From positions 1,488,001 through 1,552,000 of the forward strand of contig JAKZZE010000007.1 in the NCBI GenBank assembly GCA_024220505.1: 64,000 nucleotides of DNA. The letters run 5' to 3'. This DNA is from Rhizopus arrhizus (taxonomy: Eukaryota; Mucoromycota; Mucoromycetes; Mucorales; Rhizopodaceae). Shown here in pieces: positions 6,754 through 34,290 of the stretch (the stretch's first letter is position 1; each line of letters begins with the position of its first letter). The notes beneath the pieces are model-generated. The model was not told the origin of the DNA, did no database searches, and was given only the letters and a program-made list of their open reading frames with translations. A program made the translations under genes and the position numbers.

Positions 6754-6766
6754 TCCGATCCGGACG
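6754..6766. promoter_or_regulatory. TCCGATCCGGACG promoter element (DHX34 side)
   Basis: This GC-rich near-palindrome stands out in AT-rich DNA 57 bp upstream of the helicase start codon. It matches the elements found upstream of RPL10, RPL15 and RPL4 in this window. Binding factor unknown. Confidence 0.5.
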
Positions 6767-7801
6767 TGTGTTGTAAGAAAATGAGCATGAAAGTAAACAT
6801 TTTAAGACAAGTGTGAGGCCATTTTTTAATGTACTCAAAGAGGCCTCAAGCCCCCATGTCTCTTTTAGATCAAGTCCATGAAAGAACACAAAATGACTGT
6901 GGTCAGTAAAACATGAACTGCGTCTTTATTGATACTTTAAAAGTTGCATGTTTGCGCTATATGATTGAATGCAGCTGTAGATGACTTTGTGAGAAAAAAA
7001 GATCTTGTATTCCCAAAGACCATGACGGGGATATTCACTAGTATCATTTGAAGCATAAAATAGAATGATCTATGATGGTCATGCTCATAGTAAAGTGCCC
7101 ACATAAGATATCTCAAGAATTCTTTACTGTTTACAATAAAAGAGCGATCGGAGGCCACCTCGTTTTTATGAGGTTCATCTTTAGTCATTACAGCTTGCTC
7201 ATGTCTGGTTGAGATGAGTTCATTTAAGCACAGGATGACTCTATCTAATATGAAAGCATGGCCCGATTGGTTAGAGATACGAAGTAGAATGGATTATGCT
7301 TTTCCTACTGAAAACAGACATATTACTCTTTTCATCATTCAACCCTCATCTAAAATCCTCCTCGGCACTATTCATCGTACGGAGACATCCCATCAATCAA
7401 AGAGGATCAAGACCTTTAAACAGCACACTTGGACATGGTGAGCCCAAAGTCTTGGATTACCATCCTTTCCTTGTCAACTCCTTTTCCAGTGGCAAGATGA
7501 AACTTTTAAAGCCGACTTGTTAAACATCTTTTCTGATGGTCTATGCTGAAAGATATAAAAAAGCACTGTTAAAAAAACATTGGCCAAAAGCACTTGAAGA
7601 CTTCCCTCATGGTCCATTCAACGCATTCCGTCCACACGCTCTCAGCTTTTAAGATCAAAAAAGGAGCTGTGAGAAATGAAAAGGTTGCTTCTTCACCTTT
7701 CTACTTTATCCAGTGATGTTTGGTGTTTTTAAAATAAAGGTAAACCGGCATGAAAGCAACATGTGTTACAAAAGATCAGTGACCTATCACATACCCGCTT
7801 G

Positions 7802-7814
7802 TCCGGACCGGACA
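7802..7814. promoter_or_regulatory. TCCGGACCGGACA promoter element (RPL10)
   Basis: The element lies 193 bp upstream of the RPL10 start codon. It is the most symmetric of the four loci, with overlapping CCGGAC/GTCCGG half-sites, and is likely a binding site shared by ribosomal-protein genes (inference from recurrence). Confidence 0.6.
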
Positions 7815-8007
7815 CTGATCAAAATCCGAGACTAGAGAGGATGATGATGCCCATGAACAGGTGTTAAGAATGTGTGAAGGAGGGAGGGAGGGGGGCAAGA
7901 AGATGCCCATCCGAGCAAGCACCTGTCTCTCTTTACCTTCGTACTTGGTAAGTGGATAGAGAAGAGATGGATGGATGATAGTAAACGACGGTTGGTAGTG
8001 ATTCAAA

Positions 8008-8658
8008 ATGGGTCGTCGTCCTGCACGTTGTTATCGTTACTGTAAGAACAAGCCTTACCCCAAGTCCAGATACTGTCGTGGTGTTCCCGATGCCAAGTTG
8101 AGAATTTACGATTTAGGTCGCAAGAAGGCATCCGTTGACGATTTCCCTCTCTGTATTCACTTGGTCTCCAACGAATACGAACAACTCTCTGCTGAAGCGC
8201 TTGAAGCCGGTCGTATCTGTGCCAACAAGTACATGGCCAAGACCTCTGGTAAGGATTCCTTCCACATGCGTATCCGTGTCCACCCCTACCACGTCACTCG
8301 TATCAACAAGATGTTGTCTTGTGCTGGTGCTGATAGATTGCAAACCGGTATGCGTGGTGCTTTCGGTAAGCCCAACGGTTTGGTCGCTCGTGTCAACATT
8401 GGTCAAATCATTTTCTCTGTTCGTTCCAAGGATTCCAACAAGGCTGTGGTCATTGAAGCCTTGAGACGTTGCAAGTACAAGTTCCCTGGTCAACAAAAGA
8501 TCATTATCTCCAAGAAGTGGGGTTTCACTCCTTTGGACCGTGCTGACTATGTCGAAGCTCGTTCCAAGGGTCTCGTCAAGCCCGATGGTTGTTATGTCAA
8601 ATTCGTTCCTCAAAAGGGCAGTCTTGCCAATTACTTTAAGGAAGCTGTCAAGGCTTAA
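8008..8658 (+). CDS. RPL10: 60S ribosomal protein L10 (uL16)
   Basis: A single intronless frame of 216 residues begins [20 protein letters not shown], which is the invariant uL16/RPL10 N-terminus, and contains the conserved [27 protein letters not shown] region near residues 145-170. uL16 joins the large subunit late in the cytoplasm, near the peptidyl-transferase and A-site finger region. The length equals the family norm (about 214-221). Codon use is strongly biased (GGT, AAG, GTC), as expected for high expression. A long antisense frame (8784-8113) is a shadow of this bias. The shared GC-rich element sits upstream at 7802-7814. Confidence 0.98.
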
Positions 8659-31192: not shown

Positions 31193-33238
31193 ATGTTGAG
31201 TTCCGTAACACCTTCAGCAAGTGTTTCTACTACTTCTATTGCCGGACAACAGCAAGTATATATACCCGAGAAGGACGAGATTTGGTCTGGTATTTTGAAA
31301 GGTGTTGCTTCCACCAAGATGGTACCTACCAAAAACGTTTTAATCCTAGGTGAATCCTAATTTAAGCAAATAAAACTCTGTACTTATTCATATAAACAGG
31401 AGAAATGGGTGCAGGTAAATCAACCTTGATTCACTATTTGAAAAATGATCCTGGCCCTCAACAGCAGCGAGAGGAAACGCCTGTCAACTATCATGTCAAA
31501 AGTCACTATACCCCACACATCAAAACACCCGTGGAAGAAAACGATTTGGCCTTGGGATATTCGTTTATAGACGTCAAGGATGAGGAGCATGAAGGTAAAT
31601 AAATATCCTTGCTTCACTGTTCTCTAACATCTGAGAGTAGCCGTCGCTCGATTGGGATGTTATCAACTCGGACTTTCTTCCCCTGAATTCTTACCACTCT
31701 TGAAATTCGCTATTCGCTCTCAAACCGTCGCTGATTCATGTGTTGTTATCTTGCTCGACTGGTCTCGTCCTTGGAAATTCTTGGAGACCTTACGTAGCTG
31801 GATTCATGTCTTGAGGTACGTGACGGATGAGATCTGTAAAGAAAACACAACCAATCAGTGGAGTCAAGGAAAGGCGGTCATGGATGAACTCAAAGAGAAT
31901 TGTAAGCTCTATAAAAAAGTATTCTTTTATTTACATGTTTTTGCGTAGTGGAACATTATTTACAAACATATACTGAACCATCCAACGGTATTGTGTTGAC
32001 CGCATCCACTTCGACAAGTTCCATCGTGGCCAATCCTAATCCTAGTACTTCAGCAACAACTCAAGCTTTAAATACTACCAATCATACAGATCAAGTCGTG
32101 TTGCCCTTGACAAATGGTTGCTTAACCACTAATTTTGGTATACCCATCATTGTCGTTTGTTCCAAGGTAACAAATATAAACAAATCGGCTTTTTCTTTAC
32201 CTTTTAAATAGAGTGACGCCATGAACAATTTGGAACAAACACATGATTATAAAGAAGATCAGTTTGACTATATTCAACAAACTTTAAGATCCATTTGCAT
32301 GAAATGTAAAAAGAAAAAGAAAAAGAAAAATAAAGATACTTATTCGTGTATAGATGGTGCAGCTTTATTTTATACCTCCAGTTATCAACCCTATACCTAT
32401 CATCAACTTCGAGAATATATCTTGCATCGTCTATTGACCATCAATGGCAAACCATACCCATTTCAGAGTCGAGCTCAAGTCGTCGAACGTGACACGGTCT
32501 TTGTTCCTTCCGGTTGGGACTCTTGGAACAAGATCAAGGTGTTACGAGAGGGGTTTGATTGCGAAAGCATATCAGAGGGATGGGATGAAAATATGGATGC
32601 AGACAATAGTCAGACTGGAGCTATTGGTATTTATCAAGAAGCGATACCCAATGAAGAGTCAGACAGCCAAGTAAGCCCATTGAACAACATTAGTTTTGCA
32701 GACATATTAATAACGATCCATAGCCTGAGCATATCTCTGTGGCTACTGTATGTGAAGACGAACAAATCTTTTATGAACGTCATTTTGAAACACTTCAAAA
32801 GACAGTAGACAGTTCTCGTAAGGTGAGTAGGCCAGGCGTCGTCGGTCCCTTGGGTGCGCCTCCTACGAATGATTTGACACGAATAGATACCAACAAAAAA
32901 GTAAGTTTTTCATATCCTCTTTACACATCCTAACTCTTTCTTCCTTTTGAAAGCAGGAGTCTGTTGAAAAGACACCAAACGGATCGCCTCCACCCACCAA
33001 TAATATCGATGGGCAAAATGGACCTTCGCACGAAATCATTGCCAATTTCTTTCAATCTCTATTATCCAAAAAGGCCAGTGGTGGATCTCCTACTTCTTCT
33101 CCTACATCCATTTTAAGTGGTATGCAGCAATCGAATGGCCGAAGTGAATTGGATGCTTACAGAAGACCTACGGTTAGTAGAAAAGATGTACATAAAGAAT
33201 TGGATAGAATGAGACAGTATACGGCCAGTAGTAAATAA
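31193..33238 (+). CDS. Cytoplasmic dynein light intermediate chain
   Basis: Eight exons (31193-31349, 31400-31594, 31638-31901, 31949-32166, 32212-32305, 32354-32670, 32724-32900, 32957-33238) join to 567 residues. The G-domain P-loop GEMGAGKSTLIHYL lies near residues 52-65. Further dynein-LIC hallmarks are LLDWSRPWKFLETLRSW, VLPLTNGCLTTNFGIPIIVVCSK, QTHDYKEDQFDYIQQTLRSIC, YGAALFYTSS, RDTVFVPSGWDSWNKI, and a C-terminal IIANFFQSLLSKKA helix of the adaptor-binding type. The subunit binds dynein heavy chain and cargo adaptors for minus-end microtubule transport. Its stop is only 9 bp from the stop of the convergent thymidylate kinase gene. Confidence 0.95.
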
Positions 33239-33247
33239 ACGCCTTTT

Positions 33248-34005
33248 TTATTTCCATAAATTGTATTCAATGTCTCTTTCAGTAGCGGCTGCTGCTTCAG
33301 TCACCTTGTTTAAGATGTCTTGCTCAATCTTCTCCATACTTTGACTCGCGTCAATAAACTAAAAAGAGAATTAGATCTCACTCTCGTCTCACTCTAGTCT
33401 CACCTTCCATCTCTCGTCCTTTAATTTCCTAAACTCCTTTCTCACTTTGATCTGCAAATCATATTTCTCATATCTTTCTTCCCCAAATCCACCTCGCTTT
33501 CGTGCTTCATCAATCGACAAATCCAAAAACAGGACCAAGTCGGGTGAAATCAAGCCGACATCAGGCTGTTTGCACCATGCGAAATCAAGACCCTTGGCAG
33601 TAGAAAAGGCCACGCCCGAAAAAGCATATCGATCAATCACGAGCGTGATGCCCTTTTTTAATTTTTCTTCAATCGTCTTCCTAATCATCCGTCAGCCTTT
33701 GCTCTCTTTTTTATCTCAACTCACATTGCTTCCCATCGGTTGGCAGAGAACAGCAAGTGGATCGCGTGATCGTCCAGTTCGTTCTTTTGACGCAAATAAT
33801 CATCAATCATCTTCCCAGTCTGAGTCGTTCTATCTAGAGAGTCGTCAGTGGACACAATTATCTTTTAAATCGATATATAACCAGGAAACTTGAGTAGTTC
33901 AACAGCAGTTCCTTTTTGTCTCAAATGGTTTACAAGTCTTTCACATTGAGTTGATTTTCCTGCACGGTCACAACCCTCAATCACAATCATCAAACCACGA
34001 TTCAT
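33248..34005 (-). CDS. CDC8: Thymidylate kinase (dTMP kinase)
   Basis: Exons 34005-33882, 33833-33725, 33680-33404 and 33358-33248 join to 206 residues, normal for the family. It begins [24 protein letters not shown] with the P-loop, followed by [24 protein letters not shown], the DRY motif in [15 protein letters not shown], and [18 protein letters not shown]. It phosphorylates dTMP to dTDP, the step before dTTP. The plus-strand frame 33447-33893 is its antisense shadow. The 3' end converges on the dynein gene with overlapping UTRs likely. Confidence 0.96.
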
Positions 34006-34265
34006 TTTTTTTTTAAAAAAAAAAAAAAGGAAAAAATAGGTCGTTTGCATAAAAAACTTTAATCTCCCTCGACTTTTTTTTTTATTGCAAGGGAGCCAAT
34101 CCAATGGTGACAAAAGCCACACTTTTTTTTTTCTTTTTCATAAAACCTTTGATAGTTTCAACAATAGATTGAAAATGACAAGAAGCAATAGGGTGGAGTT
34201 GATTATGTATTACTTGAGCCTTGTGTGTTGTATAGAGTTGACAGGATGAATAGACATGTATGCAT

Positions 34266-34290
34266 TCCGGTCCGAGTAAGTCCGGTCCGA
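34266..34290. promoter_or_regulatory. Tandem TCCGGTCCGA promoter elements (RPL4)
   Basis: Two identical 10-bp copies at 34266-34275 and 34281-34290 lie 94 bp upstream of the RPL4 ATG. Read on the other strand they are TCGGACCGGA, the same core as in the RPL10 element. Confidence 0.6.

Follow-up and report, generated by a model that had tools for sequence, protein, structure and literature searches.

The 13-bp palindrome GTYCGGNCCGRAC recurs upstream of ribosomal-protein (RP) genes in the genome of Rhizopus arrhizus, and on the strength of its sequence and distribution we consider it the probable site of a dimeric transcription factor that would activate a subset of the RP genes in this fungus. 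The work departs from a 64 kb window (the whole stretch of DNA analysed here, contig JAKZZE010000007.1, positions 1,488,001 to 1,552,000), for which an earlier note had pointed to a looser GC-rich word, TCCGNNCCG, in front of RPL10, RPL15, RPL4 and a helicase gene, and had proposed it as an RP regulon site. That proposal holds for a part of the RP genes only: the palindrome is present in 11 of 40 RP upstream regions and in none of 12 control genes, and seven of its 19 exact genomic copies lie at RP genes. Set as a rule some 100-200 bases ahead of a second repeated word close to the gene start, the palindrome points to a ribosome-gene switch unlike those best known from yeasts.

The palindrome at ribosomal-protein genes

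In a search of 50.26 Mb of genome sequence (41 contigs), with the reversed pattern as control, TCCGNNCCG was not enriched (1012 matches vs 1120), and the core CGRWCCGGA was enriched only slightly (420 vs 375), many of its copies lying in repeats as judged by blastn. Six of the 17 CGRWCCGGA loci with open frames that were viewed adjoin RP genes (RPL18, RPL8 twice, RPL32, RPL23, RPS23), and the alignment of RP-linked sites gave GTYCGGNCCGRAC. With A at the centre and at most one mismatch, the palindrome has 131 strand-matches against 70 for its reversed control, counts in which palindromic places are entered on both strands and nine entries are rows of contig C4 with identical letters. The word as first phrased is therefore too loose; the one that passes is the palindrome.

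RP genes were chosen mostly without regard to the motif and scored over up to 1 kb before the first matched exon (a span that may include a first exon or intron), and the palindrome was called at 11 or more matches out of 13 or at a strict core. Both the RP and the control set were collected by Pfam searches with PF01248, PF00467, PF00240, PF00428 and PF00573, ten of the 36 places listed for the ubiquitin family being sampled; PF00573 was chosen because the RPL4 gene of the window has the motif, and without its two extra copies the count is 9/38. Within the Pfam matches, RPL7A, RPS12, RPL30 and P1/P2 were named by eye, as were the control genes (NHP2, SNU13, SPT5, DSK2-like, Ubl, polyubiquitin and mitochondrial uL4), and hmmscan was run on one copy each of RPL26, RPL14, RPS4, RPL40, P0 and most site-linked RP genes. 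The palindrome is present at RPL26 (4/4), RPL4 (2/2), RPL40 (2/4), RPS12 (2/5) and P1/P2 (1/9), and is absent from about 1 kb upstream of RPL7A (0/3), RPL30 (0/4), RPL14 (0/4), RPS4 (0/3) and P0 (0/2). Both mitochondrial uL4 genes lack it. As for paralogues, four RPL26 copies (one by its core only) and three RPL4 copies carry the palindrome. One RPS12 copy (L042), among the sites listed initially, was rejected and not counted here, its CGGTCCGGA lying on the 3' side of the gene.

RP genes occur in two to five copies per protein among those examined (P1 and P2 together in nine), as expected after genome duplication. Three RPL14 copies (L059, L060 and L061, on contigs C27, C34 and C39) have the same translated stretch and lie 2-12 kb from contig ends.

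Could GC-rich words stand near these gene starts merely by chance? The lack of genome-wide enrichment of TCCGNNCCG and the helicase site, which is within chance, would fit such a view. Against it, when at least 12 of 13 matches were required in the same 40 upstream regions, the true palindrome occurred in seven, whereas 120 permuted palindromes of identical composition (itself included) averaged 0.17; it ranked first of the 120, followed by two close variants of itself. The reverse count gave a similar picture. All 19 exact genomic copies with A or T at the centre, among them the RPL10 copy of the window, were examined, and the seven that lie at most 650 bp upstream of RP exons (RPL18, RPS16 twice, RPL26, RPL17, RPS30 and RPL10) compare with about 0.07 expected. 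Together with three of seven further copies that have one mismatch (at RPS18, RPL11 and RPS15), ten of the 26 refined sites inspected are at RP genes. The expectation assumes some 300 RP genes, estimated from 41 copies in 11 families (3.7 per family), whose 650 bp upstream amount to 0.39% of the genome; on this basis P = 6e-13 for 7/19 and 4e-18 for 10/26. Chance is thus largely refuted for the RP genes by permutation, by these site statistics and by the flank comparison given below, and we regard it as very improbable.

The seven one-mismatch copies were taken, in order of listing, from 100 listed rows, none after C7:460825. Passed over were loci already covered (a repeat, two RPL8, RPL32 and RPS23), the second strands of exact sites, C1:1573777 (taken as a mirror copy of C1:1567296) and the nine C4 rows with the same letters. 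If the last ten of these (C1:1573777 and the C4 rows) are counted as misses, the RP share of the one-mismatch copies is 3/17 and that of all refined sites 10/36 (P = 2e-16, or 1e-9 if the RP fraction of the genome is five times larger). Of the other four one-mismatch copies, one stands by an ATP synthase gamma gene and three have no recognised gene start; of these three, one falls in a repeat and another within an open frame.

We also observed the following around the sites. RPS18 is arranged divergently with a mitochondrial COX24_C gene, and the palindrome stands between the two or nearby (L181); RPL11 is preceded by RPS8 in the same orientation (L182); and the palindrome of the ATP synthase gamma gene (L180) is upstream of it.

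Several findings weigh against the palindrome as an RP activator site. It is not at most RP genes, 29 of the 40 having none within about 1 kb, and for this reason it is not the main RP switch. Among the 19 exact copies, 12 lie elsewhere than at RP genes. The Fisher test of RP genes against controls gives P = 0.04 only, because the controls are few (12), and paralogues are not independent in it. When 11 matches out of 13 suffice, a single close variant of the palindrome overtakes it, with 11 upstream regions to ten. The palindrome marks a subset of RP promoters, not all of them, and the reading that we prefer, that of an activator site, is confined to that subset.

Copies at tRNA genes and in repeats

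Four exact copies out of the 19 precede transfer RNA (tRNA) genes (tRNA-Val, Glu, Tyr and Ser) by 44-47 bp. Of the remaining eight, several sit in repeats, and single copies adjoin a reverse-transcriptase-like frame, a zf-PARP gene (PF00645) and a RAI1-like gene (named by eye, with no Pfam match); the rest have neighbours that were not identified. There were 63 scored tRNA matches among 2878 candidates, and for 60 of them, taken regardless of motif, up to 150 bp upstream was examined: the palindrome, called at a minimum of 11/13, was found in 7/60, and the reversed pattern in 0/60. These results bring in a wider possibility, namely a general element of the translation apparatus, read by one factor that would act with RNA polymerase II at RP genes and with RNA polymerase III at tRNA genes. 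In its favour, three of the 12 tRNA upstream regions without a match elsewhere in the fetched loci (L139, L149 and L151) have the palindrome. However, 48 of the 60 tRNA 5' flanks match other fetched sequences, several motif copies lie in those repeats, two of the seven motif-bearing flanks (L135 and L142) are 99% identical, and no palindrome was found at the single match to the 5S ribosomal RNA gene. Because only 12/60 upstream regions are free of such matches, repeats explain part of the tRNA signal, and we hold the general element to be possible but doubtful. Should the tRNA link prove right, an element common to two polymerases would be unusual.

Alternatively, the palindrome could have been carried to RP and tRNA upstream regions as a passenger of mobile elements, having no regulatory role there. 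Many of its genomic copies are indeed in repeats, and tRNA flanks are full of them. Yet a blastn comparison of some 300 bp surrounding each of 27 RP-linked sites, and likewise the helicase site, with 183 fetched loci and the window gave matches only to RP paralogues and to overlapping entries for one and the same place, and still the palindrome recurs at 18 RP families (RPL23 by its core only). We therefore find a passenger origin improbable, and retain the activator site as the preferred reading for the RP subset.

The tRNA flanks have features of their own. Many 5' flanks share the boundary word ATTTGCAGTG, as if mobile elements targeted them. CACGTG is found in 11/60 tRNA upstream regions, and words resembling TGACGTCA were seen by eye in several. 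At L067, L076 and L079, upstream of different tRNA genes, CACGTG stands two bases from the palindrome and is followed by a TATA-like stretch.

Promoters in the window and the ATCC-repeat box

The three RP identities proposed for the window were confirmed by Pfam, and a search of the letters confirmed every place given for TCCGNNCCG. On both strands the word has six matches in 64 kb, at 6754, 7802/7804 (both strands), 18296, 34266 and 34281, with no further copy; the mean over 100 shuffles was 1.00, and none of them reached six. Chance must be judged with care here: the loose word is not enriched over the genome, and for the refined 13-mer four places of the window with at most two mismatches compare with 1.89 expected, eight shuffles reaching four.

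RPL10 (uL16; 8008..8658, plus strand, ATG at 8008; PF00252) has the only perfect palindrome of the window, GTCCGGACCGGAC at 7801..7813, 195-207 bp upstream of its ATG. RPL15 (eL15; 17386..18047, minus strand, exons and intron, PF00827, with the ATG at 18047 read from the sequence and the 3' end taken from the open frame) has GTCCGATCCGGAC, with 12/13 matches, at 18295..18307, 248-260 bp upstream. RPL4 (uL4; 34384..35716, plus strand; PF00573 and PF14374), whose intron directly follows the ATG at 34384 as read from the sequence, is preceded by a pair of sites: the partial palindrome TCCGGTCCGA at 34266..34275 and, with 12/13 matches, GTCCGGTCCGAAA at 34280..34292, 92-104 bp upstream, the pair together spanning 92-118 bp. 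Adjoining the RPL15 upstream region, at 18440-20100, is a degenerate reverse-transcriptase-like relic with a YADD-type box near 18470-18510, as seen by eye.

The fourth gene is a DEAH-box helicase on the minus strand (ATG 6697), with an HA2_N domain in Pfam and matches in PDB to DHX36, DHX29, DHX37 and others; its C-terminal exon has no match in the PDB set, and it is presumably DHX34, a narrower name that we assume from the C-terminal sequence. Its site, TTCCGATCCGGAC (6753..6765, 56-68 bp upstream of the ATG), is a weaker match (11/13) that may be there by chance. The N-terminal exon has a single genomic match and no second, hence no promoter of a paralogue is at hand for comparison. Because the site has two mismatches, and about 1.9 such matches per window are expected by chance, the helicase link is weak: we rejected the gene as a regulon member, and the earlier note's connection of a decay helicase with the control of ribosome biogenesis does not hold on present evidence.

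All three RP genes of the window have, near the ATG, a second and commoner element that the earlier note overlooked, a strict ATCC-repeat box: AGATGGATGGATGA at 7965..7978 (plus strand, 30-43 bp upstream of the RPL10 ATG), AGATGGATG in gene orientation at 18110..18118 (minus strand, 63-71 bp upstream of RPL15) and CATCCATCCA at 34327..34336 (plus strand, 48-57 bp upstream of RPL4). In k-mer counts over 39 RP upstream regions (the RPL14 copy L060, kept in the 40, being left out), for which the palindrome was not an input, ATCCATCC and its shifts rank first (25/39, in 9/10 families, 0.83 expected). The same counts recovered CCGGACA, a half of the palindrome, in 11/39 (1.7 expected). Other words that stand out are CGTCAAG, in 15/39 (3.0 expected), and GGTAAATA, which may be a 5' splice site. 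As ATCCATC[CT], in both orientations, the box occurs in 30/40 RP upstream regions and 2/12 controls, and has 14 copies within the window. A telomere-like origin of the box was considered; no telomere repeat was found in the 180 bases viewed from each of ten contig ends (11 ends of 400 bases were taken, one being N). A literature search with ATCCATCC gave only unrelated titles among the matches listed.

It is plausible, on balance, that this box is the main RP promoter element and the palindrome an accessory site in some promoters, since the box is in 30 of the 40 upstream regions and nine of the 11 that bear the palindrome also have it. On the other side, the box is a short tandem repeat in part: ATCCATCCA has 1135 strand-matches in the genome against 191 for the reversed pattern, therefore the box is not exclusive to RP genes, and many copies serve other genes or none. 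Such a role for the box is compatible with the palindrome as an activator site for an RP subset.

In 15 promoters with both elements (nine unselected, three from the window and three selected by motif), the gap from the palindrome to the first box on its downstream side is 48-209 bp, with a median of 178 bp, and 12 of the 15 fall at 148-209 bp. A nucleosome-sized gap is thereby suggested, and since the median is about that of one nucleosome, the open promoter may be bounded upstream by the palindrome, and the start-proximal box may position initiation. At eight other loci a looser, 7-base box is found 96-178 bp from the palindrome. Not all promoters conform to this spacing: in L050 an additional box precedes the palindrome, RPS30 (L077) has strict boxes about 890 bp upstream of it, the nearest loose box of RPL17 (L071) is also upstream, and L019, L025, L066, L071 and L072 have no strict box. 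Some boxes may be situated in first introns, which also tells against the activator reading; that of RPL26 copies may sit just inside the first intron.

A bolder combination, which we offer tentatively and with less confidence than the general element itself, is that in Mucorales one palindrome-binding factor serves RP genes of RNA polymerase II and tRNA genes of RNA polymerase III, the ATCC box being a lineage-specific RP start element. If true, a single cis-element would coordinate the translation apparatus in both its protein and its tRNA components.

Comparison with known ribosomal-protein elements

Words of known elements were counted in the 40 RP upstream regions and in 40 simulations, with ARCCCTA, the consensus given in PMC10985990, standing for Tbf1. 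ARCCCTA was found in 8/40 (3.5 expected), equal to the largest of the simulations (8), and a HOMOL1-type word in seven (2.8 expected), likewise equal to the largest. The Rap1 RPG-type word CACCCATAC was found in 1/40 (0.2 expected, largest simulation 1), the Cbf1 word CACGTG in 1/40 (2.4 expected), HomolD CAGTCACA in 1/40 (0.7 expected) and HomolE ACCCTACCC in 0/40; these and the Mcm1-like, RRPE and PAC words were within the range of the simulations. Yeast RP elements are not clearly enriched in these regions, although a Tbf1-like factor may have some part. The suggestion of an RP-associated element distinct from Rap1, Cbf1 or HomolD sites in an early-diverging fungus is supported; one protein of the window is 97% identical, over its full length, to a protein named Rhizopus delemar. 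Among the papers listed in the literature covered, subscription papers lying mostly outside the search, no RP promoter element was described for Mucoromycota or Mucorales; Rhizopus is not mentioned in the main text of PMC6173580, PMC2834713 or PMC10985990, and Mucor is absent from that of two of these.

The Rap1-Fhl1-Ifh1-Hmo1 system of Saccharomyces resembles the situation here in that a recurrent upstream element is common to many RP genes. The Rap1 system likewise has a further element at a favoured distance, as in Rap1-Mcm1 spacing (PMC6173580). However, the Rap1 RPG box is unrelated in sequence to the palindrome, the Rhizopus spacing is longer, and the Rhizopus site is palindromic and of dimer type. 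According to PMC2834713, RP genes are controlled by Tbf1 and Cbf1 in Candida albicans, and by Tbf1 in most fungal species. These too are sequence-specific regulators common to RP genes, but their words do not resemble the palindrome; the Cbf1 E-box CACGTG adjoins it at some tRNA or repeat sites. The co-switching of RP genes has been rewired between yeasts (PMC2834713 and PMC6173580).

With two concrete elements and a spacing between them, the co-regulation of RP genes becomes directly testable in Rhizopus and Mucor. The RP genes of Schizosaccharomyces pombe have HomolD and HomolE elements, a two-element layout with a start-proximal box, as the Rhizopus ATCC box may be. The predicted dimeric factor probably recognises a pair of inverted CCGRAC half-sites separated by a single base, and from the CGG-N-CCG core our guess would be a Zn2Cys6-type regulator. 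Sites of that class are built of CGG triplets, as in Leu3 (CCG-N4-CGG) and Pdr1 (TCCGCGGA), and the palindrome may share with them inverted or everted half-sites at a fixed spacing. YCGGNCCGR is present in 6/40 RP upstream regions (0.5 expected). The Rhizopus palindrome differs from the Leu3 and Pdr1 sites in its CGG-N1-CCG arrangement and in that one triplet is broken in some RP copies, namely that of RPL15 and one of RPS12 (GTCCGCACCGGAC).

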